A stretch of DNA of 64,000 nt from Oscarella lobularis. Its lineage: Eukaryota; Porifera; Homoscleromorpha; Homosclerophorida; Oscarellidae. Position 1 is the stretch's first letter. Each line of letters begins with the position of its first letter. The DNA is taken from assembly GCF_947507565.1 (NCBI RefSeq), contig NC_089186.1, positions 1,550,001 to 1,614,000 of the forward strand, given 5' to 3'. Below, piece after piece: positions 25,751 through 62,967 of this stretch. The notes beneath the pieces were generated by a model, which saw only the letters and a list, made by a program, of their open reading frames with translations, did no database searches and was not told where the DNA came from. The translations under genes and the position numbers were made by a program.

Positions 25751-27235
25751 TTAGTCAATCTTCTCCGGATTCAGATCATAGACGACGAACGTGACGTATC
25801 CGTCGTCCGACGTCTCGCTTCCCCCCTGCTCGTACAGCACGCCCACATAACGAGGCGGACTATCCCCATTCGGTATGACGGTCATGCACGAGTAAGCGGC
25901 ACCCTCCGGCCAAATGACGAGACGATTCGAAGCGTCCCACGTCTTTCCCTGATCGTAGCTCCACGACAACGTGAGATTGGCGCGACGATCCGTATTGATG
26001 ATATTCGAGTGAAGCAGAACGTCGTACTCCGGCACGTAGGCCATGCCCGCCGCGCACGCGGGATCGGGAAGATCGTTGGCGACGCGAAGCGTCTCGTAAT
26101 GAATCGTTTCGCCGCCGTCGACGCTCGACGCAAACATGCGGGCCGCTCCGTGATATTTGTATTGATTTCGGATGCTAATCAGAATGCTTCCGTCGGACAT
26201 CTCAACGGGCTGAGAGAGAAAGAGAAAATAAATTTAGTACGTCATGTGACTTTTTTGATATAAGGATGACTGCTAACCTGGCATTCGTTGGGCAAAAAGT
26301 CTCCTTGGACCTTTGGTTGATTGTAGAGCATTCCCGGAATGACGGTGCCATTCTTCCATGAACGACCGTGATCTAAACCAAAACAACGTTGATGTAGAGC
26401 ACTTTTAACGAAAATTTCAAAATTGATTAATTAATGCGCAATGCTATTCTCTCCCACTCACCGTCACTATAGATACACTTCAGTCCTTCGGTGTTCATAT
26501 AAGACTGACCGTCGATGATGTCATGATAATGACCGCAGAAGACGAGACGTCCCTTGTGAGGCGCATGCATTTTCTATAAAAATAATAATAATAATCCCAA
26601 TTAATACCTAATTAATTTAATTAATCAATTAACCAATCAGCTCTCACCTGAAGTCCTGTTCCGGGACCCGGCGAAAAAACGGTCTTATTCGTTCCGATAT
26701 GATGCGTAATATCGACGGGATCGGACCACGAGAGCCCGTTATCGGTGCTATTAATAACGTACGTGCGCGTCGTCGGACAGGCGTGCTCGCATTCGCCGTA
26801 AATGACGAACATCGTTTTCGTTACGTTGTCCGTAACGACGGCGCCGAGAATCACGCCGTCGGACATCGTGTAGCCGTTGTCGATCTCTTCGATCGTCGGC
26901 GACCATTTTTGATCGCCTTGCGTGCTGACGACCACTTGGCTTGAGATCGAACGCTGCGAGAGGAATTTGTAGCCCGTGTCGCCGCCGCCGATCTTTCGGC
27001 CTTCGGTTAGAGCGATTAGATTGCCGTTCGGCGCCGCGGTGATCAGGGGAATGCGATAGACGCCCATTTGGTCGGCTCCTGAGATTTAGTGAGTAGGCTT
27101 CGAGCGAAGTCGATCGTTTTTCTCACCGTTTGGAGTCCAAACGTACTGAGGATCGTGATGCGGCTTCGGATTGATGCGATAGCGGCCTTCGGAGACGGCT
27201 ACGAAAGCGAGAAAGGCGAGTACACACAACGCCAT
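25751..27235 (-). CDS. NEU1-like sialidase A
   Basis: ATG 27235 opens a signal peptide (MALCVLAFLAFVAVSEG). Exon 2 carries the GH33 RIP motif (GVYRIPLI) and an Asp-box (STDNGLSWSD). The following exons read GPGTGLQ, KGRLVFCGHYHDII, a second Asp-box (DHGRSWKNG) and FLPNECQ. The last exon has a third (SYDQGKTWD), an active-site Arg context (ISIRNQYKYHGAAR) and YVGVLYEQG before the stop at 25751. The FxPGPGxGxQ, GRLxxCGH and P-[ND]-ECQP stretches are typical of lysosomal NEU1. Such enzymes release terminal sialic acid from glycoconjugates; lysosomal or secreted location is inferred from the signal peptide. Three of the four genes of the cluster are less similar to A than B is. Confidence 0.92.
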
Positions 27236-27530: not shown

Positions 27531-29034
27531 CTAGTCAATCTTCTCCGGATTCAGATCATAGACGACAAAAGTGATGTACCCATAATCGGCTTTGGACGTC
27601 TCTCCCTGCTCGTACAGCACGCCCACATAGCGCGGACTACCCTCGCTGGGTATAACGGTCATGCACGAGTAAGCGGCACCCTCCGGCCAAATAACGAGAC
27701 GATTCGAAGCGTCCCACGTCTTTCCACGATCGTAGCTCCACGACAACGTGAGATTGGCGCGACGATTCGTACTGATGATATTCGAATGAAGCAGAACGTC
27801 GTACTCCGGCACGTACACCATGCCCGCCGCGCACGCGGGATCGGGAAGATCGTGAGCAACGCGAAACGTCTCGTAACGAATCGTTTCGCCGCCGTCGACG
27901 CTCAACGCAAACATTCGAGCTGCCCCATGAAATCTGTATTGATTTCGAATGGTAAGCAAAATGTTTCCATCAGGCAACTCAACAGGCTAGAGAAAAAAAT
28001 AGAGAAGATGAACTGAGTGGTATATATACAGTTCTAAGTCGTCTTATACATGACTCCTAAGAACTGGGGTCATGTGGTGCGTCTTTGGATTAATTATATT
28101 ATTATTGATAAATCACTCACTTGGCATTCATTGGGCAAAAAGTCTCCTTCGCGTTTCGTTTTGTTGTAGAGTAATCCAGGAATGACGGAACCATTCTTCC
28201 ACGAATAACCATGATCTAACATATCATGACATTATTATTAGTGATATAAGCCACGCGGTCTTACCGTCACTGTAGATGCACTTGAATCCTTCTGTGAGCA
28301 TCAACGACTGCCCGACAACGATGTCGTGATAGTGACCGCAAACAACAAGACGTCCTTTGTGAGGCGAATACATTTTCTAAAAAAAATCACAATAAATAAA
28401 TATAAATACAAATAAATAAATAAGGTTATGCATACCTGAATTCCAGTTCCGGGTCCCGCCGCAAAAGCGACTTTATCCGATCCAACTTGACTCGAAATAT
28501 CGACGGGTTCCGACCACGAGCGTCCGTTATCCGTACTATTCACAACGAACGTCTGCGACGTCGGGCAATCGTGAATGCATTCGCCGTAGACGACGAACAT
28601 CGTTTTCGTTACGTAATCCGTAACGATCGCGCCGAGAATCACGCCGCTCGGCGTCGTGTAGCCGTCGTCGACTTCTTCGTGCGTCGGAGACCATTTTTGA
28701 TCGCCGTAAACGCCGAGGACCGCTTCGCTTGCGATCGAACGCTGCGAAATGAATTTATAGCCCATGTCGTTGCCGTTGATCTTTCGGCCTTCGGTTATGG
28801 CGACTAGATCGCCGTTCGGCGCGACGGCGATGAGAGGAATGCGATAGAGGCTCACTTCGTCCGGTCCTTGGGGGAGAGCGAACGTTAGAATCCGATCGCG
28901 CGCGCGCGATTTTTCTCACCGTTCGCCGACCAAAGGTATTGAGGATCGTGGTGTTGAGTCGGCTTGATGCGATAGCCGCCTTCGGAGACGGCTACGAAAG
29001 CGAGAAAGGCGAGTACGCGGAAGCGGATCGCCAT
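27531..29034 (-). CDS. NEU1-like sialidase B
   Basis: Start ATG 29034 (MAIRFRVLAFLAFVAVSEGG, a signal peptide). The exon structure is identical to sialidase A: SLYRIPLIAVAPNGD (RIP), STDNGRSWSEP, GPGTGIQ, KGRLVVCGHYHDIV, DHGYSWKNGS, FLPNECQ, LLTIRNQYRFHGAAR, SYDRGKTWD and YVGVLYEQGE, ending EKID at 27531. Asp-boxes and the putative catalytic Arg, Tyr and Glu positions are retained. The last exon is extremely similar to that of gene A, suggesting a recent tandem duplication or gene conversion of that exon. Confidence 0.92.
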
Positions 29035-35153: not shown

Positions 35154-36666
35154 TTAGAAATAACGTCGAAGAACTGTCCCTTTCTTCCTCAAGCTCTGAC
35201 TACCAGTAACGTTCAAATTAATAACAGCCATGGCAATCATTTCGATAGAGGTCCCACCGTTGTCTCCCGTCTCGTACAACAAACCGATGCGATTGCGATT
35301 TCCCTCGCCCGGTATCCTAACCAGAGTTGAGTATCCCGACGGACCGGGATACACTTGCATGTGACCGGGCCACGTTCGACCCCCGTCCGTGCTCCACGAC
35401 AAACTCATGTTAATTCGCTGCGTCGAATTGAACGGATTCGAATGCAGAAGAAGATCGCGTTCGTCGACGTAGAGCAGACTTCCGGCGCAGCCGGGCGTGA
35501 CGAGATCCGTCGCTATGGTGATCGTGTTTGAGGGAATAGTTTCGATGGCGTCGAACGAGCGAGCCAATACGCGATAGGGGCCGTGATAGCCTACGTCGTT
35601 GCGCGTGGTTATCAGTATAGAGCCGTCCGAGAGTTCGACAAGCTGACGGAGAGAGAAAAACACGCATTATAGTACCACTATAGTAGTGCCTACCTACCCC
35701 CTTCAGTATCTATGATACACATAATCGGGTCTACAAACGTTACTTAGACTTACCTGATTTTCGCTAGGAGTAAAGTCGTGAGCAGCTTTTTCTTGACCGT
35801 AGGGAATGCCGGGAATCCACGCACCGGACTTCCACCGCATCCCCTCATCTCAAAACGAGAACAAGTGAGATCATATACATATATATGCATGTGATTGTAT
35901 AAGTAGAATACCATCGCTGTAGATGCACTTCACGCCTGTCGTTTTTCCGTGGTCGTCAGAGAATGGCGCTGTACAGTTCCAACCACAAAAAATCAACCTG
36001 CCCTGGTGGGGATCATGCCTCTTCTACACATCATTATTCTTACTGGTATATATATATAATATTCGGTATATATGTATATACTCACTTGAATACCATATCC
36101 AGGGCCGCCAGCAAATATCTCGTAAACGCCGCCTATCTGCTCCGTAATATCGACCGGCTCTCCCCAAGTCAGTCCGTCGTCGTGTGACGTCATCGTAAAC
36201 GTTCGCGTCTTCGGGCACGTGTGCATGCACGTGCCGTATACGACGATCGTCGTGCCGTTCGTCGTGCTCAGAACGGCGCCGAGATTGACGCCGTCCGACG
36301 CGAAGCCGTCGTTTTCGATGAACATCGTCGGCGACCAGGCGTCTTTCGACCATACCGAATGCGCCATGCGACGCACGGCGAGAAATTTCGCCGATCGGTC
36401 CGCCGACGTGCTTTTGCGCGCTTCGGAGACGGCTACGATTGCGCCGCGTTCGTTCCACGTCGCTATTGGGATGCGAAAGTGGTCGACGTCTCCGTCGCCT
36501 AGTCACGTGATGTAAGCAAAGACGAGAAAAAGGGCTCGGGGAGAAGCGCTTTGCCTCGTTTGTTCCACAGAATGAACTCTTCTTCGACGAAAGGATTAAG
36601 AAAGAGCTCTGCTGAAGAGCTGAAGATGATAGAAAAATACAAGACAAGAGATCCCTTTGTCATCAT
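35154..36666 (-). CDS. NEU1-like sialidase D
   Basis: Start ATG 36666, signal peptide (SLVLYFSIIFSSSAE). Nearly identical to sialidase C in RIP motif, Asp-boxes (SHDDGLTWGEP, STDGGRTWPG) and the LLYETGD region. It lacks the stop that ends gene C after NVTG and continues for 14 residues (SQSLRKKGTVLRRYF) to the stop at 35154. The first intron (36499-36554) again has a GC donor. The conservation of all catalytic motifs argues that both copies are functional. Confidence 0.9.
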
Positions 36667-44979: not shown

Positions 44980-47058
44980 TCATGCAAGGCAAAACAAAAA
45001 CACCGCGACAGCAGCAGCAGAAACAGAAACAAAAAAGAATTTCACGCACCAGAATTGAGACGACAGAACCATATTTCCACTTGAGGTTGGACTTGGAGTT
45101 TGAGTTGGAAGCGGAGTCGTGATAATGGGAGGTGGAGTAGTCAGTAGTGTAGCGCATTCTGACGGCTGCAACAGACTAGTAACACAGAGAGTGGTAAGTC
45201 CCAAATTTAATTAATTAATTATTTAAACAATGTTACAGAGAGGAAGACTCCTGACACTTCGATAGTTCAGTACATCTAGCTCAAAGACAGTATATAGATC
45301 GAGTGCTCATCTACGGCTTTATTTATTCTGTACTTGAGTTTCGGAACGCAAAATCCACAGAAAGGGTCTGGAGCTGCGAGGCAATCTAAGCACGTGGTCA
45401 GAGCGTTGCATTCTTGCACAGGTATTGCTGTCAACTAAACGTATTTATGTATCACTGCATGAACAAAGTGGACATTTGAGAATTCCTGCTCACGTTAGAG
45501 TCTGATAGAGCGTAGACAACAGACCTATCCGGATTTAATTCAAGACTGAGAATTCTTCTGGAACTGCTTGTAGACAACGTCCTTATCAGCCGAGATGAAG
45601 AGTTCGTACGGACATCTATCTAGAACGCAACATCTAGCATTTACATGTTTGAATCGTCACCTCAATTGATTACTTTATCGACTGTGCCGTCACTTTTGCC
45701 GGCAAACGCAACCGTATCGGTACTGTAGGCGACAGTGAAAGTCACAGCTGTAAGACTACCAGACGGCGAAGCGGGAATTTCATAAAAGGCGCTGCTGAGT
45801 ATTGGGTCGCTTGAAGGTATTTCTAGATTGATGTCAACGACGGAAGGGCTGCAACCGGTGCCGTCCCACAAAGTTCTCTACAGTCAAGTCAAACTACTAA
45901 ATGGAGAGATGACACCGAATTCCTCACCAGCGTATCAATGCACGGTTTTAAACTGTCCCTTGCAAAGCCACGAGAGCCGGAGATTCCATTCCTACAATTT
46001 TCCAGCCCTTGCTTATATTTAGCGTTGATTTGAGGAACTGAAACGACGCATAGCGCGCTGGCACCGGTGCCGTCAATCTTCTCATTGAAAACGCCCATAA
46101 GAACATCGTCATTTCCAACGCTACTTGCCAGCAAAGTACCCACTTTTCCAACGTAAAATGACTGCATATATTTGTACGTTTTACTGTTTCCTTTGCATTC
46201 AATGTAAGCCTCCAGGTAAGCGTAGAACGTGTTCCTCGACATGCCTTGGTCGTTCCGACATATGCGCGCAATTAGAGTTCCTCCAGCAGACGAAGAATCT
46301 GTAGCAACAAAATAAACGAATTCGCCACTCCCAAAGGCACTTATAATGTCAAACGGAAAATCTAGTGGAAAATTTATACTTCCCACCAGCGGTTGAAGCA
46401 GATTTTCATAACCCATGCCTCGCACACTGATCTCAAATGGCTTCACCGACGACAAAGCTCCCATGTGCGTGACGAGAAACAGGGCTGGACGGCCGAGGTA
46501 ATCATAGGAAATAACTCCTGCTGAATTTGAGTCCTCATCGCGTGTAACAACGATCATTTCAACAGCAGGAAATCCTCCCGCTTTGAATATCTCCTCGTCG
46601 CTTCTAGAAATAGTACTGACATTAGATGCCGAGCGGAGATTGCACGTGCCAGCTTGCAAATTTCCACACGTCAATACAGAGTCGCCACTTTCATTGAGAA
46701 GCAGAAGTTGGTTGAAATTCGACTGAATCTTTGTCGGAATAGTGTTATCAAAGCACGACTGACTGGAAAACCAATCGCGTGGAAAGCAACCCTTGTTATC
46801 GCTGAGAGGCCCCGTTTTTGCAGTGCGGCTCGTCTGAAGTGGCGAAGGAGCGAGTTGAAAAATAGCGTCTTTTCCCGCAACATAGATATCGCCCGTCGTT
46901 GGATGGACAACCACACGACGAAGTGGTGCGTTTGACGAAGGCGCGGTCCAAGTAGGATACGATGAGACGGGTATAAGAGAAGAAACGCAGAGAACGGTGG
47001 CGATCAGAATCGCTAGACGTCTCGGACGTCTCTGCAGCGAGAGCGCGAGATATGCCAT
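44980..47058 (-). CDS. Sema-PSI domain protein with a GPI-like tail
   Basis: The Met at 47058 (MAYLALSLQRRPRRLAILIA, then TVLCVSSLIPV) gives a signal peptide. The first long exon (to 45928) is a sema domain with GDIYVAGKDAIFQL, KGCFPRDW, LLLLNESGDSVLTCGNLQAG and ALCVVSVPQINAKY. After a 50-bp intron (45878-45927) come WDGTGCSPSVVDI and FAGKSDGTVDKV. A PSI domain follows (QECNALTTCLDCLAAPDPFC, then GFCVPK), then a Pro/Thr stalk (TTPPPIITTPLPTQTPSP) and a hydrophobic C-terminus (VSVSAAAVAVFLFCLA) with no cytoplasmic tail, ending at 44980. Sema-PSI with a GPI-type end recalls SEMA7A, but the sequence is too divergent to call it semaphorin or plexin. The last exon joins are inferred; an alternative frame would give a hydrophobic C-rich tail. 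Confidence 0.7.
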
Positions 47059-47517
47059 GCAAACCACGGAAGATCCGGAAGAAGGGTCTGAGGATACGTT
47101 TGGAGTCACGTGCTATATCCTCGTTTTTCTCGACTTCGTCTTAGTCCGCCTTCTTTCAGAAATCATTGCTACTCTGCAATAGAAAGTTCCCAAACTCATT
47201 TTCACCTGGACGCAGGCATCCGAAGACGGGCAACGCCCACCGACTTCCTGTTTGACTCAAAACAGTGCGTCGTAACGATCGTAAACATCCGCCGTATGGG
47301 GTTGCGATGGGCCAGCGCAAGAATAAGGGAACTGCGTACGACATAATGAGCACATAAATAGACGGTGAAGGCAAACTGAAAAAAATTGTCACAGCAGCAG
47401 CGACACATCCACTGAAGGTCACAGTACGGTCAAAACGCCTACGCGTTGTCTGCATGATCAACCGCCGCAACGTTTGTTGACACTCACCCAGACTTTTTGC
47501 GACTAGGACATCCAATT

Positions 47518-49357
47518 TCAAAGCGAAAACTTTTGGCTTTGATAGGAGCGCAGTCTCCCTCGTAGCCACGATTTCACGCACCACACTTGAGACGGCAGGA
47601 TAATACTTTTTCCGGACGGCTCTGCAGCTTCGCAACCAAGCAGCCCTCTGATCGCCTCCTTATCGTACGTCACGTTGGAAAGGCGAAACGACTTACACCG
47701 ACCCGGTTTGATTCTGCGCGGCGCTTCGAACGAACACGGACGATGCTGGCATATTCGAGAGGTCTCCAACAGGGGTTTCTCGCAGCTGCCGGTGCAAGAG
47801 GCTAGCACTTTCCTCGTTCGTTTCTGAATGCCAAGATCACATGAACGGCTGCACGGAGACCAGGCGCTCCACGGCCCGTAAACGCACTCGTGTCGAGGCG
47901 TGCACACGGGCAGCTGACGTTCACCTATACCAAGATCCCCCCGCATTAGTAGATCACGACTTCTGCTGTTCGTGAGATATATTACCGGTTACGTAGGTCG
48001 AAATGACTCGACATAAGGGAAGGCTACTGTAGTCGTATCCTATACGAAGAGCCGCTTCCAACGCCCATTCGCACGACCGGTTCTGGGTGATGGCCATAAA
48101 GAGAACGGCAAAATAAGCACCACGAAATCTATAACACTCATAAAAATATTTAATAATTATTATTATTATTTAATTTTTTACCCGGATTTGCAGTGAAACA
48201 AAAGCGGACATGTCTCCTCGAACACTTCCTTGAGTAAGCAGTAATAGCTATCGACGGCGTCTTCGTCGAAGCGATAACAGCCGCCGACGGGCACGTGACA
48301 GTATTTAATTCCGCTCTCGTCCAATCGAAGTCGCTCGAGCGTCTCATTATAGCCAACGGCATCGCCAAACTCGCACGTGTTTTCAGATTCAAAGTTAACG
48401 GTGGAATCGGGAGATATGTACGAATTCGGTTTCGTCGGATCGAGACGGAAGTTCATTAGATTTTCCGTTAGCTGCCTTCCGCCGTTATCGTACGTTCTCA
48501 GCGCCGACGAGTTGACGTTCAGTAGCGACACTTCCTCTTGAGAGGGCGCATCACCGCACGGATCAAACGCGCCCATGCGCATATTTGCTACGACCTTGAA
48601 CTCGTCTTTCTGAATGTTACAGACGCGATCGGATTGAAATTGAGCTGAAATGTAAACGCAATCCGTCAGACGCTTCGCCTCCCAGAATCTCTTCCACGCA
48701 AGCGGATCAGAAACGGTGGGAACGTCGGGGCACGTGGTCGAGTCGGCGACGACGCTACGAGCCGTCTGAACGAACTCTCGAACTCCTCGATAGTCGAACC
48801 CGATTTCCAAACCCCGACTGAAAACGTCAGAGCACGATATTTCATTCCGTTTGGCCAAGTAAAGAAGCGTGACGCCGGTCGCCGCCAAGGCGGCGTCGCA
48901 GTGAACTAAAATCGGTTTGGACAATTCATCGACTGCCGCTTCGAAAGCGTCGACGGCTTCGACGCTCGACCAGGAGATGTTGCTTGGAAGATGTCTGTAT
49001 TCGATGCCGGCAACGTCTGATATGCTAACGTAGTCTGACGTGTCGGGGAGATAGTCGTCGCAGTTTGTGTCATTGCAAAAGGCGTGGTCGGCTTCGGTGA
49101 AGTAAAAAATCGATAGGATCGATTTGAATTCTCCGCTTTCGGCGGCGTATTTAATTTGACGATCCGTTGGACGACCTATATGATGTAGATGGGATATGCA
49201 TCGTGACGTCGGTTCGATGTCTGCGCACTGCTTCACCTGCGGTCGAGAAATCGTCGTTGATTTTCTTCGCCCACCAAGCCTTTATTCGAGCCTCAGATGC
49301 GTGGCAGTGACCGAGGCAGAGTGTCAGTGCAACGAACAATGGAAGAAGACGCCCCAT
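47518..49357 (-). CDS. Secreted tandem BLH-phosphatase-like protein with TSP1 repeat, copy E
   Basis: ATG 49357 opens a signal peptide (MGRLLPLFVALTLCLGHCHA). A first DUF442/BLH phosphatase-like domain starts at NDDFSTAG, is joined by splicing to GRPTDRQIKYAAESG, and runs to LVHCDAALAATGVTLLYLA. A second domain starts at RLTDCVYISAQFQ and runs through VANMRMGAF and YCHVPVGGC to the split active-site loop HCKSG-FRGAYFAVLF. Then come the TSP1 domain (GPWSAWSPCSRSC to CQHRPC) and a Cys-rich C-terminal module. The first domain lacks the Arg of the HCxxGxR loop (likely inactive); the second keeps it. Near 47568-47575 the reading frame departs from copy F: frame 1 stops at 47518, while the frame homologous to F continues (NRGYEGDCAPIKAKS). 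BLH-type domains are mainly bacterial; this architecture is new to me. Confidence 0.8.
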
Positions 49358-49919: not shown

Positions 49920-51876
49920 TTACTTGCAGCGCTTGTTAATCAAAACGGCGACTTTTCTAGACCGGCCAACTCTAAAGCGCTTCGATTTGAATTTCATAGG
50001 AACGCATTCGCCTTCATAATTGGAGGATTTTGTGCACCAGACTTGAGACGGCAAGACAACGCTACGATTTTCTCCTGAGGACGTTTGAGCCGCGCAGCCG
50101 CCGGCAATCAGCTCTCTGCGAATTTCCTCCCCATCGTACGTTACGTTTTCAACTGGAATCGACTTGCACCGACCTTGTTTCACCGCCGCTTCAAACTCAC
50201 ACGGACGATTCTGACATATGCGACAAACTACCAATGGATTCTTGCAAGCGCCCCCCGCAGACTCAAAAAGCTCCCGTGATCGTTTTTGAGTACCGATGCC
50301 ACAAGAGCGGCTACACTCAGACCACGCGCTCCAATTTCCATATAAACACAGTGGTGCTCTTGTAGTGGGAGTGATCGTGGTAAGTGGTGTTCCTGTGGTG
50401 GGAGTGATCGTTGTACTATCAGCAGTTGTAGGTGCAGGAGAGCATTCGGGCAATTGACGGTTACCTACACAGATCCCAATAATTAAACTACCATGACGTC
50501 GGTCATCGCTTTACCTGATGCAAAGCTTGATATCACTTGGCACATAGGATAGCTTCTGTAATCGTAACCTATACTGAGGCCTGTATCCAAAGCCCACTGG
50601 CAAGACTTCTTCTGAGTGATGGCCAAATAGAGCAGAGCAAAGTAAGCTGACCGAGTACTAAAAAGAATAAGACACATGCAGCCCTCAAATTATGCCGCGG
50701 CTCTCGTACCCGGTTCGGCAGTGAAACAAGACCGGACACTTCTCTTCGAACATTTCTTTTAGCACGCAGTAATGGCCTTCGAGAGCGTCTTCGTCGTATT
50801 GATAGCAGCCTCCGACGGGAACGTGATAATATTCAAATTCGTACTTTGCCAGTGCAATTCTCTCAATCGTCTCATTGTAGCCAATTTCGTCACCGAACTC
50901 GCAAACATTTTGGGATTCAAAATTATCAGTGGAAGTCGGAGAAACATAAGAATTCGGTTTGGTTGCATCTAGGCGAAATTTCAGGAGATTTTTTCTCAGT
51001 TGTCTTCCGCCGCTTTCGTAAGTTTTGGGCTTATAAGAGTCGATATTTATAAGAGTGACCTCCTCTTGGGACGGTCGATTACCGCACGGAATCACAGGCC
51101 CCTTTCGCATATTCGCAATAGTCTTGAACCCGTCTTCGCGAATGCTACAGAGATCCCCGACCTGAATTTGCCCGGCAATATAAACGCAATCAGTCAAACG
51201 CTTGGCCATCCAGTACCGCTTCGAAGGAAGCCTCGGTTTATGGAGATAAGGAGAACACGAAGGCGATTTCGTGAGAGTGAAAGCAGTGTGTGTAAATTCG
51301 GGAATTCCTTGATATTCGAACCCGAACGCCCGACCGCGGGAAAATACGTCGGAGCATTGAATCTCGCCCCGCTTCGCCAAGTAGAGAAGCGCAATACCGG
51401 TCGCGTAAAACGCATTGACGCAGTGGACTAAGATAGGTTTAGGCAATCTCTGAACATCCGCTTCGAACTCGGCGACGGCGCGGGCACTCGACCACGAGAC
51501 GCCCCTTCGAAGAAACGCGTATTGAATGCCTGCTAACTCAGCTATTTCAATGCAACCGGGCGTGCTGGGATAGAAGTTGCACGTATCGTTGCAGCGCCGC
51601 TCCTCCTTGGAAAAAAAGAAAATACTTAGAATCGATTTGAATCGACCGCTTTCGGCGGCGTATTTGACTTGACGATCAGTGAGACGACCTTAGTGGGGAA
51701 AATACTACTGTAGTATATAGAATTTCTTTTAATTAGGAGACAACAAGTCTCGTTTCACCTGCGGTCGAAAAGTCCTCATTGATTTTCTTTGCCCACCACG
51801 TTTTTCTCGACGCCTCGCTGCAGCCGAAGACGACGAATGCGCCGACGACGAACAATGGAAGAAGAACACGCCCCAT
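49920..51876 (-). CDS. Secreted tandem BLH-phosphatase-like protein with TSP1 repeat, copy F
   Basis: ATG 51876 opens a signal peptide (MGRVLLPLFVVGAFVVFGCS). Domain 1: NEDFSTAG-RLTDRQVKYA, SILSIFFFSKEE, LVHCVNAFYATGIALLYLA (no active-site Arg). Domain 2: RLTDCVYIAGQIQVGD, GFKTIANMRKGP, EYYHVPVGGCY, then VLFHC-RTG spliced to TRSAYFALLYLA, reconstituting HCRTGTRS, the canonical BLH loop. A Pro/Thr stretch (TTITPTTGTPLTTITP) precedes TSP1 (GNWSAWSECSRSCGIG to CQNRPC, with the WxxW mannosylation motif) and a Cys-containing C-terminal module ending VLINKRCK at 49920. The same architecture as copy E indicates tandem duplication. Presumed extracellular because of the signal peptide and TSP1. Confidence 0.85.
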
Positions 51877-52132: not shown

Positions 52133-53930
52133 CTACAGACTCGTTTCGGTGTACGAATCCTCGCGAACGTTCTTTGGCCTGACCAAAGGAAAAGGAACGA
52201 GGGTCGTGCCTTTCTTCGACGGCAAGGGATCCTCGAGCGTGTAAGGCGGCGGGGAGGAGCTTCGATCAGGAGGAAAGTACGATTTTACAGCGTGCCGAGG
52301 AGCTAGGGCATTTAGGGGAGCAAGAACGGTATCGACGCCAATGATGACACCAGGAAGATTACTAGTGGCCTCTAGAGCATTTTCGGGTGGCGAAACGATG
52401 GATGGCCCCTCTTCGACGACGGCGGATGTCGTCTGCGAGACTTCGGAGAGCGACATGGCATTGGATTCCGTTTCTCCGACGACGACGTCGGGATTTATGC
52501 TGACGTAGCCGGACGACTTGAACGACTTTTCGTACATTTCGATTTGGGAGATTCGCTCTTCGACGCACTGGGCGGTGAGACGGGCTTCGCCTTCGGAATC
52601 CCAGCATTCTTCGATCATCTCTTCGATCGCTTCAGTTGGCTATACATAAATAGAATATATATCTTTGGTACTATGCCCCCTCTCCTTACGTATGGCGTTT
52701 GCGGATATCTTTGGAATTGCGGTCTCATTCGCAGTTTCACGACGCACTCCTTCATTTCTTCGAAGCCTGGATGCGAACCGACCTCTTCTTGGAAGGGCTG
52801 CTGATAAGCGGAAACGTTTCCTATGGACAGAACGGATCGCTCGCGTCTTTGAGTAAATTCATCAAAGGCGTCACTTGCCGTTTCCCAGATCGCATCGCGA
52901 GAAAATTTCCCAAAGTATCAACGCCATGGCGTAGACGTCGATTCTCAGAAACGATTCCCTGTGAAAACTGATGGCACCTTCCAACACTTCAGGAGCCATG
53001 TATCGAATAGTGCCAACCTACGAGAGAGAGAGAGAGAGGAGAAAACGTCACACAACCCAACGTAAGAGACTCAGCTTATCTTTGATTTACCTGGCCCTGG
53101 GCTTCGACCAAGCTCGTTCCCAGTTGAAACTTCATCGCCAATCCGAGATCCGATATACAGCAAACGCCTCGACTCTTCATCAACACATTCCGACTCTTCA
53201 TGTCCCGATGGGCGATCGCCGGCTTCATAATCCCGTCGGCACTCCCACTCGCCGCCGCCGCCGCCGCCGTCGTCTCGGCGTGCAAATAGGCGAGCCCCCG
53301 CGCAATCGACTTCACCAAGCCGCACAACTCGCCGAACGTCACGACGTTATTCCGCAAATGATCCATCAACGATCCCATGCCGTGATACTCGGTGATAAGC
53401 CAATACTCGAGCCGCGACTCCGGCTCGTCTTCGTCCTTCTCGCGCGCGCTCGCCGCGACGAACTTCAAAACGTTCTCGTGCCTAATCGGCGGCATGACGT
53501 ACGCTTCGACTTCGGAATTCCACGACTTGTGGTCAAAGAATATCTTCGCCGCGTACGCGTCGTCGTTGCCGCACGCGACGCGCCACACGTGCGCAAAACG
53601 GCCGATTCCAATGTGTTTCTCCTTTCGAACGGCGCCGAAATCGAAGCTCGGATTCAACGCGTCGACGTCGCCGTACGGCGACGGCGACATCATCGCTATG
53701 TCGCCGTTCTCCTTGTCGTTCAAAGCGATCGCACCCGCGCCGCCGTTCTCGTCGTCGTCGTCGCCACGGCGACTGCGACTCCACCAATAGAAAAAAAGCA
53801 CGAATACGACGGCGACGAATACGACGCAGCTCACCGTCGCTACGATGGCGATGATGATGACGCGCATGTCGCTCGTTGGAGTCGCCGTCGATGACGTCAC
53901 GAGGACGGAAGTGGCAACCGGCATCGGCGG

Positions 53931-53967
<37 letters not shown>

Positions 53968-54443
53968 TTCCAGTCCGGCTGGGTCACGTTGTAGAGATTG
54001 CACAAGTCGCCTTTGCAACAGCACGAACAGTGACGTCCCGTCACGTGGCAGTTCGGCTTGCATGCGCGATTGCAACCCAGATAAAACTCGCATTTGGAGT
54101 GCGTGACGTAGCGGCGATTCGACGTCGCGTTCCAATCGAAGGCCACCACGCAATTCGTTCTCAGCGGATCGAACACTTCTCCAGTTTTCTTCTCCTTGCA
54201 CGATTCGAGAACTCTAGGGCAATTCTCGAGCTCGCAGTTGGTCGCGCCGTTGCAGTAGTACGTCGGCACTTGCCCGTCGGATAGATGGGGTCCCACTGTG
54301 TCGCGAGAGGTCTCGTTAGTTCTACGCGCGTCACGGATCCTAGAAAGGATCCCGTGACTGTACGTACCTATAAGGACGACGAGCAGATGGAGAGCGACGA
54401 GGGAAGACGCCCGACGAGGCGCCCGAAATCGAAACGACTTCAT
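52133..54443 (-). CDS. TGF-beta/activin type II receptor-like kinase G
   Basis: ATG 54443 ([14 protein letters not shown]) opens a signal peptide ([10 protein letters not shown]). The Cys-rich ectodomain ends with the three-finger signature [11 protein letters not shown], followed by a (PT)n stalk. A transmembrane helix ([20 protein letters not shown]) and a kinase domain follow: [10 protein letters not shown], the Lys of AAKIFF, Glu in [24 protein letters not shown] (DLG rather than DFG), [26 protein letters not shown]. The C-lobe ([36 protein letters not shown]) and tail resemble ACVR2. The tail contains SSSPPPY and ends ETSL. Type II receptors bind ligand and phosphorylate type I receptors. 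The intron inside DLGN (52821-52878) has a GC donor (GCAAGT). Confidence 0.92.
52241..52252 (-). other. PPPY motif in the receptor G tail
   Basis: Encodes the PPPY of [12 protein letters not shown]. PPxY is the canonical ligand of WW domains of Nedd4-type E3 ligases. The same motif occurs in receptor H. Confidence 0.7.
53021..53037. repeat. (GA)n repeat in a receptor G intron
   Basis: About eight GA units just inside the intron that precedes the [10 protein letters not shown] exon. Confidence 0.8.
53933..53970. repeat. Hexanucleotide repeat coding for the (PT)n stalk
   Basis: Tandem GTCGGC units on the plus strand encode a run of Pro-Thr ([11 protein letters not shown]) between the ligand-binding domain and the transmembrane helix of receptor G. 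Confidence 0.85.
54331..54357. repeat. Palindrome resembling the transposon terminus
   Basis: TCACGGATCC (54331-54340) pairs with GGATCCCGTGA apart from one extra C. The left arm with its continuation, CACGGATCCTAGAA, resembles the left TIR of the element at 853 (CACGGATACTAGAA). It sits in the first intron of receptor G. Confidence 0.5.
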
Positions 54444-54774
54444 CACCTTTTGTCCCAGGAAAAGGAATGTAAAGGTGAATGTCCCGTATACCGTGACGTA
54501 GTGTGCTTTTTTTTGCTAAAAAACGCCGTGAAAGCATGAACTTAAATATCGTTCTGCATTTCTAGATGGGCCGGGCGCGAAGGGAATTGCTAATTAATTA
54601 ATGAATTAATTAAAAGCACTGATGATGAAACACAAGGCAACACACTTTCTAAATAAATCATTCGCTCAGCAGTCTACTAGAGGCAATTAATCTCGATTCT
54701 TTAACTAAAACGGGCAAATAAAATTCTCTCAAGGTCTGTCTGGCTCGGTACTGTATTTCTATACGCGGCTAACT

Positions 54775-57133
54775 TTACAGACTCGTTTCGGTGTACGAAT
54801 CCTCGCGAACATTCTTCGGTTTGACCAAAGGCAAAGGAACGAGAGCCTTGCCTATCTTTGACGAAGACGGTAGGGGATCCTCAAACGCGTAGGGCGGCGG
54901 AGAGGAGCTTCGATCGGGAGGAAAATACGATTTTGCAGCGTGACCAGCGTCCAGGGCGTTTTGGGAAGCAAGAACGGTATCGGCGTCACTGGGGACCCCA
55001 GGGGAATTACTAGCGGCCTCTAGACCATTCTCAGGTGGTGAAACGATGGACGGCCCCGGCCCCTCTTCGGCGGCGGCGGACCCCGGGTGCGAGATTTCGG
55101 AGAGCGACATGGGATTGGATTCCGTTTCTTCTCCTCCTCCGATGTCCGGATTCATGCTGACGTAGCCGGACGATTTGAACGACTTTTCGTTCATTTCGAT
55201 TTGGGAAATTCGCTCTTCGACGCACCTGGCGGTGAGACGAGCTTCGCCTTCGGAATCCCAGCATTCTTCGATCATATCTTCAATCGCTTCAGTCGGCTAC
55301 GCATAGACAAAAAATATTAGAAGTACTTCTCTATCTAAGGCCCACTTTGCAGTACAGCTACGTACTTCTACTCTACCGTGTACTGCGATCCCCCATGAAT
55401 ATTCCCCGTCTCCTTACGTATGGCGTTTCCGGATATCTTTGGAATTGCGGTCTCATTCGCAGTTTCACGACGCACTCCTTCATTTCTTCGAAGCCTGGAT
55501 GCGAGCCGACCTCTTCTTCAAAGGGCTGCTTATAAGCGGTAACGTTTTCTATGAATAGAAAGATTGCTTGCGTTCACGAGCGAATTCGTCAAAGGCGTCC
55601 ACTTGCCGTTTCCCAGATCGCATCGCGAGAAAATTTCCCAAAATGTCAACGCCATGGCGTAGACGTCGATTCTCAGAAACGATTCTCTTTGAAAACTGAT
55701 GGCACCTTCGAGCACTTCAGGAGCCATGTATCGAATAGTGCCAACCTAACAACCCAACCTAAGAGACTCAGCTTATCTTATTTTGATTTACCTGGCCTTG
55801 AGCTTCGACCAAGCTCGTTCCCAGTTGAAACTTCATCGCCAATCCGAGATCCGATATACAGCAAACGCTTCGACTCTTCATCAGCACATTCCGACTCTTC
55901 ATGTCCCGATGAGCGATCGCCGCCTTCGTCGTCCCATTGGCACTCCCGCTCGCCGTCGTCTCGGCGTGCAAATAGGCGAGCCCCCGCGCAATCGACTTCA
56001 TCAAACCGCACAACTCCCCGAACGTCACGACGTTACTTCTCAAGTGATCCATCAACGATCCCATGCCGTGATACTCGGTGACAAGCCAATACTCCAACGT
56101 TTCGCCTTCGTCCTTCTCGCGCGCGCTCGCCGCGACGAACTTCAAAACGTTCTCGTGTTTGATCGGCGGTTTGACGTAGGCATCCACTTCGGAATTCCAC
56201 GACTTGACGTCAAAGAATATCTTCGCCGCGTACGCGTCGTCGTCGTCGTTGCACGCGACGCGCCAAACGTGCGCAAAACGACCGATTCCAACGTGTTTCT
56301 CCTTTCGAACGGCGGCGAAATCGAAGCCCGGATTCAACGCGTCGACGTTGCCGCCGTGCGACGACGACGACGCCATCGCTCCGCCGCTTTCCATGTCGTC
56401 CAAAGCGATCGCACCCGCGCCGTCCTCGTCGTCGTCGTCGTCACGGTGACTGCGACTCCACCAATAGAAACAGAGCACGAAAACGGCGGCGACGAATACG
56501 ACGCCGCTGACCGTCGCTACGATGGCGATGACGATGACGTGCACGCCGCTCGACGGAGTCGCCGTCGATGACGTCATAACCTTCGTTGATGACGTCACAA
56601 TCACGGAAGGAGAATCCGTCGACGACGGCGGCGGCGACGGGGGCGGTTTCGGTTGGGTCACGTTGTCGAGATTGCACAGGTCGCCGTAGCAACAGCACGA
56701 ACAGTATCTTTCCGTTTCGTGGCATTTCGGAATGCACACGGAATCGCAGTGAAAGTCTCTTATCGTACAAAAGGCGTTTGTCACGTACATGCGATTCGAC
56801 GTCGCGTTCCAGTTAACGGCCAACATGCAGGCCGCCTTCAGCGGACCGAGGAGCGGATTCTCGCACAATACTGGAATCTTGGAGCAATGCTCGATGTCGC
56901 AGTTGACGGCGCCGTTGCAGTACGTCGTCGGCGTTTGCTCGTACGATAGATGGGGTCCTATAAGGAGGAGGAGGAGGAGGAGGCGGAGGAGGAGCGTTTT
57001 TTGTTTTTTTCGAAATCGCGCGTCGTCGCGTCGACGTCGCGCGCTGCGTGTACCTACCTGTAAGGACGACGATCAGGTGAAGAGTGACGAGGGAATACGA
57101 CCGACGAAGCGTGCGAAATCCGGACGATTTCAT
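54775..57133 (-). CDS. TGF-beta/activin type II receptor-like kinase H
   Basis: ATG 57133 ([15 protein letters not shown]) opens a signal peptide. The exon structure and phases are as in receptor G. Ectodomain: [14 protein letters not shown] to [11 protein letters not shown]. Transmembrane: [20 protein letters not shown]. Kinase: [49 protein letters not shown] spliced through a GC-donor intron (55549-55606) to [15 protein letters not shown]. Tail: [12 protein letters not shown] and a final ETSL (stop 54775). The kinase insert is shorter than in G (no poly-Ala). All catalytic residues are present. High similarity to G in the kinase and lower in the ectodomain suggests tandem duplication with ectodomain divergence. 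Confidence 0.92.
54889..54900 (-). other. PPPY motif in the receptor H tail
   Basis: Encodes the PPPY of [12 protein letters not shown], conserved with receptor G. Confidence 0.7.
56958..56996. repeat. (GGA)n repeat in a receptor H intron
   Basis: About a dozen GGA/GGC units on the plus strand in intron 1, directly after the exon starting GPHLSYEQ. Confidence 0.85.
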
Positions 57134-57602
57134 CGCGTCGCGTCGAACAAAAGGTTATCGCCTTTTGTCCTCGGGGGGAACGATGGACCGCTGAACGTCC
57201 CGTATAAGCTGAACATATTTTTTGACGCAGTGACGTCATTGTTATCCCGATTGGCGCGGTGTGCTGGGAGAGACCGACTACTGTGCACGTATTTTTCTTC
57301 TTCATCGCCGAGAAATTCGTGGACTCTCTATAACGGTTGGGTCTGCTAATGTAATTACACTTGAATTGCTTCCATATGTACAGATGCTCGGACAATCTTG
57401 CATCAAGATGATGGCAGGAGAGATTAAATCTCTGATGGCAGGAACGCTTGAGCGCACGCTAGCCTAAAAAAGTAGCGAAAGCAGTCAATCAATAGTGCAC
57501 TTCTATCTAATTAGCCAGACAAAAAAAAAGATTCTACAGTATTAAAACTTAAGAAATTACAAACTACAGAAAGATTCTTTTCGACGCAGACGGACAATTG
57601 GT
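57134..57602. other. Upstream region of receptor H and 3' flank of ectodomain gene I
   Basis: Short ORFs without recognisable domains. ACGTCATTG (CRE-like half-site) occurs near 57232. Nothing else seen. Confidence 0.4.
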
Positions 57603-58227
57603 TCATGTATGAAGAATAGCTGCTGCAAAAACGTTGAGCGTCGTCGCTAGGGCGACGACAGTAACGTAGACGCGTACGTCGCTTAGTGGACTGGACGACG
57701 ACGACGACGACGACGACGGCGTCGCCGCAAAAGGAGACGGCGACGACGACTGCGGCTTCCAGTCCGGTTGGGACACGTTGAATAAATTGCAGAAGTCGCC
57801 TTCGCAACAGCACGTACAGTGACGTCCGTGACGTCCCGTTACGTCATGGTGGCAATTCGGTTTGCACACGGAATTGCAAGCCAGATGAAATGCGCAGTCG
57901 GAGTGCGTCACGTAACGGCGATTCGACGTCGCGTTCCACTCGAAGACCAAAAAGCAATTGGCTTTCAGCGGATTGAACGTGCCGTCTTGATGAAATGATT
58001 GATCCGAGCACGATACGGGAACAGTAGGGCAATCGTCGATGTCGCAGTTGACGGCGCCGTTGCAGTTGTAAGTCGGCGTTTGCTCGTACGACTCGGATAG
58101 ACAGAGTCCTAAACGCAAAGAGGAGGAGGAAGAGGAGGTAGTTTAGTTCTATCCACGCGTCCGTCGCGCGCTATAGACGTGGACCTGTAAGGACGACGAG
58201 CAGATGGAGAGCGAAGAGGGATTTCAT
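57603..58227 (-). CDS. Kinase-less TGF-beta receptor ectodomain, probably membrane-tethered decoy (gene I)
   Basis: ATG 58227 opens a signal peptide ([15 protein letters not shown], split by an intron as in G and H). The ectodomain has the same Cys pattern as G and [41 protein letters not shown] poly-Ser stalk encoded by (GAC)n leads to VYVTVVALATTLNVFAAAIL, which ends two residues later (HT, stop 57603-57605). There is no kinase and no cytoplasmic tail. The end fits a GPI-attachment signal or a tailless transmembrane anchor. By analogy with BAMBI (a kinase-less type I-like pseudoreceptor), it could sequester ligand; that role is inference. The similarity to G suggests it arose from the same duplication series. 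Confidence 0.8.
57684..57712. repeat. (GAC)n repeat coding for a poly-Ser stalk
   Basis: About nine GAC units on the plus strand, read as TCG/Ser on the minus strand in the stalk of ectodomain gene I. Confidence 0.85.
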
Positions 58228-58303
58228 CGCGAGAGACCAACTCAGTGGTGCGCATGAGCAATTGTACGAAATAATTTTTTTCTAATTGAATAGACACGCC
58301 TAA

Positions 58304-59115
58304 TTACACAAACCCTCTGGGGAGACAATGTTCAGAGAGCATCAAAGCGACTGTCAATTGAGAATGACGAAAACGGCCCGAAACGACTGCAACCGTCAAG
58401 ATAACAAGACGACTTTCACTCACAGACGCAGCTCCATGTGCCCCTTTCGTCGGAACTTCGGTACGCTGAGTCAACGACGGAGGACGGAACCATGACGGTA
58501 GATAACGCCTATCCCACGCAACGTCAAATTGATTGCACATGTCTCCCTCGCAACAGCACGTAAAGTATCTCCAATTGTTGCCAGTATCGGCGTACCATAG
58601 TTCGCACGAGGAGCCGCATTCGGGGAAATATTTTTGGCAGGTAGTCGCCTCGACGTAGAGACGATTCGTCTTATTGTCAAATTTGAAGTTGGACGAGCAC
58701 GCGAATTTCATTGTACTTGACACATTTATTCCATTGTTTCGCCATTGCGTCAAGCAGGTGACGGGTCGAATGGGGCATTCGTCCAAGTAACAACGATTAG
58801 CGCTGTTGCAGTACGTTGCCCCCTCCACCGAGAAAAAAAGACCGAGAGCTACACAAGGGGAAAAAAGCACGTGCTCTCTAATAAATTAATCCTAATTGAT
58901 TTTTTTCTTTTCGGATGCCTTTAGTGACTTCGGAGACATTCTAGTTTATAAAACGTCACGCTAGGTGTTGTAATTAATTAATTGGTTAGTGTATCGCACT
59001 CGTAAGGGTACCCCAAGTCTCGCAACAGCCATTGGGCGCTTTAGAAGGACATCGAGGCATCCGCGTAGACTACAATACTAATTAGAAGAAGAAGAACCTC
59101 AGCTGCGTGGACCAT
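58304..59115 (-). CDS. Kinase-less TGF-beta receptor-like ectodomain (gene J)
   Basis: The main exon encodes TYCNSANRCYLDECP and FKFDNKTNRLYVEATTC, ending with FTCCCEGDMCNQFD, the three-finger CCxxxxxCN signature of activin/TGF-beta receptors. It is preceded by ...LGLFFSVEGA. An upstream exon from ATG 59115 (MVHAAEVLLLLI), joined through a GTATTG donor to the acceptor at about 58850, gives a good signal peptide. The C-terminus after the stalk is moderately hydrophobic (LVILTVAVVSG) and runs to the stop at 58304; an intron starting at GTGAGT near 58424 could give a shorter tail. No kinase. It is more diverged than gene I. The signal exon and C-terminal structure are inferred. Confidence 0.65.
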
Positions 59116-61049: not shown

Positions 61050-62967
61050 TTATCTGCTCTGTCTTCTTTGGATTGATTTGCCGTAGTTGCTCCAGTTGGC
61101 CGGCGCGTGCTTCCGCTCGTAATACTTCGTCAGCGACGAATTGTAGATAGGCAAAACCTCGATTGCTTCTTCAGACAATGCCTTTTGGTCAATATATTAT
61201 TTTTTAGTCAATTAATGTACTTCACTGGTGTGTGGATTTACTTTGAGGTAGACTATGACGTCCGTTCCGTGCCCTTCCACCGACGTGAGAACTAAATCTC
61301 CGTTGAAGTATCTGGCGTAGAGTCGAGCTAACGGAAGACCATATCCGTAGCCAGCCTATAGGAGAAGACCACCTCAGAGAGAACGCATCTTCTGCTTCAT
61401 TTCATACCAGTGGAGCCATGAAAGGTCGGCCAGAAAAATCCGGTTCCTGTATATGAGAATAGAGTTAAAATATTTCGATCATTAGCATAATAAATGTTCT
61501 GAACTGAGGCCCTCCCTTTTTGGCAACTACAAGCGCTACATTTACCTGGGAAGCGGTTGTGTACGAGTACTGAAACAAATTGTCCAAATTGCTTCGAGGA
61601 ACTCCTCCTCCTTCGTCGACGATCTAAAAAAGACGACTAACAGCGTCATTAATTTATCCTAGACGACTACTACTTTGATTGCAATGTCTTCGTTGCCTTT
61701 GGCTACGAATACTTTCACGGGAGGCATTGACATCGTCGTCAGCTTGCCACGAGATTCAGCTACAGCTCGAAACGAATTCTAATAATTAAATATTGGTATA
61801 TGCCTTTCCATCCCTAGGTGTCTGACTTTAAAGAGTTCAAAGAGGATGTGATACAAGTGAGAGGGAACGTACGGAATCACGAGCGCGGTGTCGCCGAGTA
61901 TTTCCACGCCGGGACAATTCATGTAGTAATGCTCGCAAAGAATTCGAGCACTCTCGCCAGCCTCTAACCCAAAGGCATCTACGTGCCGAGCAACTTAGAC
62001 TATGTACATACGATAAATAATTTCAGACGTGTCGCAACGAGGATCAATGACTCCGATGTGATCGGGATAGCTGCACTCATTTCCAAACAAAACAACTATA
62101 TATCAAAATTAGACGAGGTGGGTAACTGATAATAGATCTCACGGTGTTGCGAAAGAAGCATTCGTATGCTAATTCGACTAGCGTAAAACCGATCTAAAAT
62201 AAAAGGCAAATATAAAGAAAAGAGATGCAGATTCAATTATATTGACCTACCTAAAAAGTATTGAATCTCGGCTCGTCGCTCGTCGAGAATCTTTTCCCCG
62301 TCGCGCATCTCCTTCATTTCGACGAGACCCTAGCGATACAAGCGCTCGAAAAAATCATTTTTCTTGAATTCGATTTACTTGAGCGACGGTTTCGACGGCG
62401 TCGGCGTGGCGCTCTTTCACGGCCCCAATCACGGAAGTAAACCTGAAGAGAGAGGTCTCCATGCATAGTTACATGTAGGACATCGTCACCTTTCTGCAGC
62501 TGCCTCGTCGTCACGTTTAGCCCCGCGAAATCGTATGACGTCACGAAAACTCTGCACGTAGCTGAAGCCAGAAGAATTCGTTTCTTTAGTTTTCAGTGGC
62601 CACATTTTTTTTGTGTACCATTGACGAACTAATTTCATCGATGGAGTGGAGAGGAGAGTCGAAGGAAGCAAGTCGATCTCCTTCATGATGTTCGCCAAGC
62701 GCACGGGCACTTCTTTTCGCAGGAAATGGAAAGAGCTCACGACATTCCTTCTTTTCTTCGATTTTGCTACGATAAAATCAAAATCTAGCGTTTTGAACGT
62801 TCTGAATCGGTTATACCAAAGTCGGTGAACTGTTTTATGGTGAGAGGAGTCGGTCGATATTTGCAGTATTCCGAGATGAGATCGTCAGCAACGTTTGCAG
62901 CCGTTCTTCGGTGGCAAAGCGTCGCGAAGGGCAAGAGCGGTCGCGCAGACCCAAAAGCCACCTGCAT
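61050..62967 (-). CDS. Pyruvate dehydrogenase kinase (PDK family)
   Basis: ATG 62967 opens a presequence-like stretch ([18 protein letters not shown]). Then [87 protein letters not shown] (N-box), DEGGG (G1), [20 protein letters not shown] (G2), [12 protein letters not shown] and a C-terminus ending [10 protein letters not shown] at 61050. This is the GHKL-type mitochondrial PDK fold with N-box, G1 and G2 ATP-binding motifs, closest in pattern to vertebrate PDK1-4 rather than BCKDK. It inactivates the pyruvate dehydrogenase complex by phosphorylation. Exon joins near the N-terminus are approximate. Confidence 0.9.

Follow-up and report, generated by a model that had tools for sequence, protein, structure and literature searches.

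Several proteins are known that share ligand-binding parts with receptors of the transforming growth factor beta (TGF-beta) family but lack a kinase. BAMBI, a proposed negative regulator, is a transmembrane relative of the type I receptors (PMC2657120, PMC9964332); it enters receptor complexes. In human, alternative splicing of TGFBR2 generates a soluble, kinase-less type II ectodomain that is used as a ligand trap (PMC8461249), so the principle of a kinase-less type II trap is already known. Here, we analyze a cluster of four genes, named G, H, I, and J, from the sponge Oscarella lobularis (assembly GCF_947507565.1, contig NC_089186.1, positions 1,550,001 to 1,614,000; this 64,000-nucleotide stretch is the window, and all coordinates refer to it). 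G and H encode complete type II receptors, whereas I and J encode ectodomains without a kinase. We propose, with a probability of about 0.5, that I and J are type II-derived ligand traps, anchored by glycosylphosphatidylinositol (GPI) or secreted, that would damp signaling through G and H. The analysis establishes gene structure, homology, kinase absence, selection on the ectodomain reading frames, and a mosaic pattern of similarity within the cluster; anchoring, ligand binding, and buffering are inferred.

The likeness to each known system is partial. I and J, like BAMBI, are kinase-less relatives of TGF-beta-family receptors, but they derive from the type II rather than the type I side and would trap ligands or serve as anchored binding proteins. 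They resemble the soluble TGFBR2 form in what they are proposed to do, but they are separate genes instead of splice products. GPI-anchored LU/Ly6 proteins, such as LYPD6 and the Drosophila boudin group, have a three-finger domain, a phase-1 first intron, a C-terminal GPI-like signal, and a clustered arrangement, features that I and J are predicted to share, although they differ in being close relatives of type II receptors encoded at the same locus. A similar trap logic, based on a receptor ectodomain devoid of its signaling part, exists in a sponge in the form of secreted Frizzled-related proteins (PMC8235796), although these belong to the Wnt pathway and contain an unrelated domain. Finally, ACVR2A and ACVR2B share with G and H a single helix, an ACVR2-like kinase, the absence of a GS box, a CCCxGDxCN end of finger 3, and probably the ectodomain, but G and H have DLG in place of DFG, and I and J have no kinase.

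The gene cluster and its ectodomains

The four genes are arranged head-to-tail on the minus strand, where all features listed below also lie, between positions 52133 and 59115, and the order of transcription is J, I, H, and G. All four are real open genes, found in tandem on one strand and at the same coordinates as in a preliminary description of this DNA. Gene models, together with Pfam and PDB comparisons, show that G (52133..54443; exons 54443-54368, 54295-53091, 53017-52879, 52820-52690, and 52639-52133) and H (54775..57133; exons 57133-57058, 56957-55792, 55745-55607, 55548-55418, and 55296-54775) are complete type II receptor genes of five exons, encoding 685 and 677 amino acids (aa), respectively. 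In both, the signal peptide lies on exon 1, which has a phase-1 end, exon 2 encodes the ectodomain, a linker, the membrane helix, the juxtamembrane part, and the N-lobe of the kinase, and exons 3-5 encode the remainder of the kinase and a tail with a YTETSL end. Intron 3 is of the GC-AG type (52821..52878 in G and 55549-55606 in H), with the donor GCAAGT preceded by an exonic G; use of this donor restores the frame and gives a spacing between the SRC and PF motifs equal to that in ACVR2A. Gene I (57603..58227; exons 58227-58185 and 58108-57603), supported by its gene model and by tblastn against G and H, encodes a kinase-less ectodomain protein of 182 aa with a hydrophobic C-terminal tail, and its first intron is in phase 1, matching G and H. 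Gene J (58304..59115) encodes a kinase-less ectodomain protein of 193 aa as modeled; exon 2 (58848-58304) is firm, whereas the 3' end and exon 1, placed at 59115-59079, are tentative.

The assignment of G and H as ACVR2-like type II receptors, already made in the preliminary description, is confirmed by their kinases. Both match the Pfam kinase model (E 4e-29 for G and 1.1e-28 for H), and their closest solved relative in PDB is ACVR2A (290 and 284 bits, respectively), followed by ACVR2B (278 and 275 bits). BMPR2, TGFBR1, and TGFBR2 score 200-218 bits, i.e. ACVR2A is ∼70 bits ahead of BMPR2 and the type I receptors. Alignment to ACVR2A reveals complete catalytic residues (AAK, HRD, DLG, and APE), with DLG as the metal-binding motif instead of DFG. 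No TTSGSGSG-like stretch is found in the juxtamembrane sequence of G or H, and neither matches the Pfam GS domain. Separate trees of kinases and ectodomains, a check proposed earlier, were built. In a kinase tree of six taxa, G and H group firmly together (100%) and fall outside ACVR2A/2B, with a deeper order at 55% support in which their placement relative to BMPR2 is not settled. The ectodomain quartet tree (52% support) is not settled, as J is too divergent to provide a root.

As described previously, the four proteins share a cysteine-rich ectodomain. Alignments identify 14 cysteines in G (53961..54275, also supported by profile search), H (56638..56940), and I (57750..58085), and 12 in J (58475..58825, also compared using Foldseek). 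Twelve of these positions hold a cysteine in every one of the genes, and the conserved series closes with CCC-x-G-D-x-C-N. The additional two, C78 and C90 in the numbering of I, are present in G, H, and I and jointly missing in J, as expected for cysteines forming one disulfide. All four sequences display the ten-cysteine LU signature ending in CCx4CN, and every indel in the ectodomain alignment is in frame. The ten-cysteine LU pattern is retained in type I ectodomains, whereas in ACVR2 and BMPR2 the 2-3 bond has been lost and a different one acquired (PMC6600238). G and H, unlike ACVR2 and BMPR2, keep the 2-3 cysteine pair in finger 1, and, with pairing judged by spacing, the four ectodomains appear to carry both this pair and the extra pair. 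When a profile of the four ectodomains was searched against PDB (E up to 10), 15 of the 19 matches were type II receptors (ACVR2A, ACVR2B, and AMHR2), with E values of 0.05 or worse; the others were two Ly6-type three-finger proteins and two unrelated proteins. The same four sequences, when reversed, gave no match in this search. A structural check pointed in the same direction, in part: the top 10 PDB matches of the J model are type II ectodomains and the top 32 are three-finger proteins, none individually significant and all obtained with a low-confidence model, and the model of I is likewise of low confidence. Taken together, these findings lend moderate support to the prediction that the ectodomain is of the three-finger, type II kind.

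The open frames of I and J are beyond chance. Simulated neutral decay left I with an open ectodomain and all 14 cysteines in 0.34% of runs, and not one of 20,000 runs for J retained an open ectodomain with 12 or more cysteines. In codon models, omega (ratio of nonsynonymous to synonymous rates) is lower in the kinase (0.32) than in the ectodomains of G, H, and I (0.54), in which fixed and free sites are mixed, and comparison of M2a with M1a gives a weak hint of positive selection in the ectodomains (twice the log-likelihood difference 6.9, p ∼0.03). Such a mixture of sites and the hint of positive selection are also what might be seen if I and J acted outside TGF-beta signaling, as Ly6-like surface proteins involved in adhesion, self-recognition, or septate junctions, and LU proteins are indeed often clustered, GPI-anchored, and fast-evolving (PMC6600238). 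We consider this unlikely, as the closeness of I to G (64%), similar to that of G to H (58%), reveals no great shift away from receptor ectodomains, although J could fit such a role better.

Kinase absence and the ends of I and J

Neither I nor J has any match in Pfam, kinase included, and sensitive tblastn searches using G and H detected no kinase remnant downstream of these genes or elsewhere in the window. The preliminary description had raised the possibility that I or J might splice into kinase exons further downstream and encode kinases after all. The exon structure speaks against this, and we judge it unlikely. In G and H, the ectodomain, the helix, and the kinase N-lobe are encoded by a single exon, and I and J are therefore unable to borrow a whole kinase through ordinary splicing to exons 3-5. 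Two further splicing routes were rejected: no good in-frame candidate was found for splicing from J to I, and only weak donors are available for alternative 3' splicing of I.

The end of I can be traced to the receptors. Alignment and hydropathy show that its C-terminal tail, SSSPLSDVRVYVTVVALATTLNVFAAAILHT (57606..57698), aligns with the membrane helix of G (53766..53885) and H (56443..56562), and stops ahead of the basic stop-transfer sequences, SRSRR and SRSHR, respectively, that follow in the receptors. Because this tail corresponds to the G/H helix cut short, there is good support for a probable origin of I by local duplication in which the kinase half was lost. The preliminary description had proposed this origin for both genes; it is clear for I and is not extended to J. 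Its description of both genes as kinase-less holds, and so does the hydrophobic tail at the end of I, but it missed that the ends of J are ambiguous. The C terminus of I consists of a stretch of small residues, a short spacer, and ∼20 hydrophobic residues at the very end. Sequence and hydropathy thus reveal the layout of a GPI signal, i.e. a signal peptide, an omega-site region, a spacer, and a hydrophobic C terminus lacking a stop-transfer sequence. The tail therefore fits a GPI-attachment signal, and attachment is predicted.

This layout is distinct from that of BAMBI, in which a transmembrane helix is followed by a cytosolic tail, since I ends inside the helix and J as modeled has no standard helix. 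In addition, neither gene matches the BAMBI family model in Pfam. Membership of I or J in the BAMBI family is not supported by sequence, and the earlier suggestion of a BAMBI-like pseudoreceptor analogue is, as worded, not supported for two genes that appear to be type II-derived and have no cytosolic part.

Gene J ends less clearly. Hydropathy suggests that its tail (58307..58432) is a degenerate helix remnant, possibly subject to alternative splicing. As modeled, it has 11 hydrophobic residues in a row and then RFRHSQ, which does not form a standard helix. Read one base later, it becomes RLVILTVAVVSG-VFVILN followed by a stop, which resembles the end of I, and a membrane helix is present in that frame only. 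Moreover, a donor at 58423 could splice out the hydrophobic tail, which would lead to a secreted form. At the other end, exon 1 offers the best signal peptide among 13 candidates, with a poor donor (3/9 consensus bases). Only 76 bases (58228-58303) separate the J stop from the I ATG, and the two genes may share a transcript or overlap. The ambiguity of both ends of J, its apparent 1-nucleotide frame difference in the tail, and the absence of AATAAA or ATTAAA from these 76 bases would also be consistent with I or J being an artefact of gene modeling or assembly, or a gene in decay. However, neutral decay comes nowhere near producing the cysteine pattern and the open frames, and the ectodomain indels preserve the frame, which makes such an explanation very unlikely.

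Mosaic similarity and the proposed ligand traps

The membrane-kinase halves of G and H are nearly identical, while their ectodomains differ, and the ectodomain of G is closest to that of I. In the ectodomain, 43 sites unite G with I, 20 unite H with I, and 16 unite G with H; in the helix, G and H share 35 sites and G and I only three. The score for a single breakpoint, which falls at the border between ectodomain and helix, was reached by none of 5,000 permutations. The near-identical G/H tract runs from the helix to intron 2 (53018..53870 in G). Consistent with this, intron 2 is identical at 41 of 42 positions between G and H and intron 1 at 36 of 72 (p = 2e-8), a contrast beyond what coding constraint explains. 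This mosaic, a conversion-like pattern that the preliminary description had missed, is most simply explained by gene conversion or unequal exchange, and faster change in the I tail may add to the helix contrast. The dS (synonymous divergence) contrast between G and H was set aside as sole proof of conversion, with fourfold sites in conserved codons differing little (16/19 versus 103/114), and the contrast between introns took its place.

A breakpoint at the ectodomain-helix border and the contrast between introns 2 and 1 could also mean that the main role of I and J, expressed or not, is to donate sequence, with their ectodomain cassettes being converted into G and H. We regard this role as improbable, as open frames, signal peptides, and retained cysteines imply a translated product, and the accelerated tail of I can account for part of the mosaic.

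In the ligand trap reading, the frame of I would have come to stop inside the ancestral membrane helix, ahead of the basic stop-transfer sequence, giving a GPI-signal-like end. With its helix cut at this point, I would most likely be a GPI-anchored or secreted surface protein, and J would be one or the other depending on its 3' end. The two proteins would capture ligands of the TGF-beta family without relaying a signal, so that signaling through G and H is lowered or localized, while gene conversion in the cluster would swap ectodomain and kinase halves. Since the ectodomain of I is closest to that of G, I should compete best with G. More speculatively, conversion between decoys and the adjacent receptors of this early-branching animal may keep a decoy ectodomain matched to one receptor as the remaining ectodomains diverge, in which case the cluster would function as a self-updating, receptor-specific ligand buffer.

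The same sequence evidence applies equally to anchored proteins with the opposite effect, i.e. ligand-presenting co-receptors that hand the ligand to G and H and raise the signal, and GPI-anchored LU proteins such as LYPD6 do enhance a receptor pathway (PMC6600238). On the other hand, a homologous ectodomain should share the ligand surface of G and H, making hand-over harder than competition, and nothing specific favors presentation; we therefore give this possibility a low probability.

Several observations weigh against I and J being ligand traps. The hydrophobic ligand-binding patch of human ACVR2 is kept in none of the four ectodomains, and the identity of the ligand therefore cannot be inferred. 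The Pfam ectodomain model PF01064 gives only a weak match, in one of the four genes (best E 0.63), and the AlphaFold models, for which the four ectodomains of the window served as input, are poor and too weak to establish the fold, with a pLDDT (predicted local distance difference test) of 39 for I and 51 for J. Omega between G and I is 0.85, which is not different from 1. Finally, the ends of J are ambiguous at both exon 1 and the 3' end.

Genomic surroundings and sponge context

The sequence TATACGGGACRTTCA is found upstream of G (54476..54490) and H (57192-57206), and is absent upstream of I and J. Its location close upstream of the two receptor genes only suggests an untranslated leader or a control element common to both. 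Other genes on the minus strand of the window include two tandem genes adjoining the cluster (47521-49281 and 49923-51689), each of which combines phosphatase-like stretches with a thrombospondin type 1 domain. There is also the start of a semaphorin/plexin-like protein with a weak Sema match (45892-47112), BNR/sialidase-like repeats under Pfam cut-offs (26624-27085, 28304-28915, and 35157-35666), and a domain like that of the mitochondrial branched-chain dehydrogenase kinase (62489-62884).

TGF-beta signaling is reported to be metazoan-specific, and Amphimedon, a sponge, and Mnemiopsis, a comb jelly, are reported to have no known diffusible TGF-beta antagonists (PMC3169577), whereas a chordin orthologue is present in Oscarella (PMC11226491). 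In Halisarca, two complete type II receptors have been described, and BAMBI is not mentioned in the same paper (PMC8235796). We found no account in the literature searched of kinase-less type II genes in sponges, or of such genes adjoining their receptors. Kinase-less type II genes located next to their receptors would represent a different restraint on the pathway, acting on the type II side where BAMBI acts on the type I side. The truncated helix of I suggests that one stop inside the helix could turn a receptor into an anchored three-finger protein. Finally, the apparent coexistence in one ectodomain of the finger-1 pair typical of Ly6 and type I proteins and of the extra finger-3 cysteines typical of type II receptors bears on the origin of the type II receptors.

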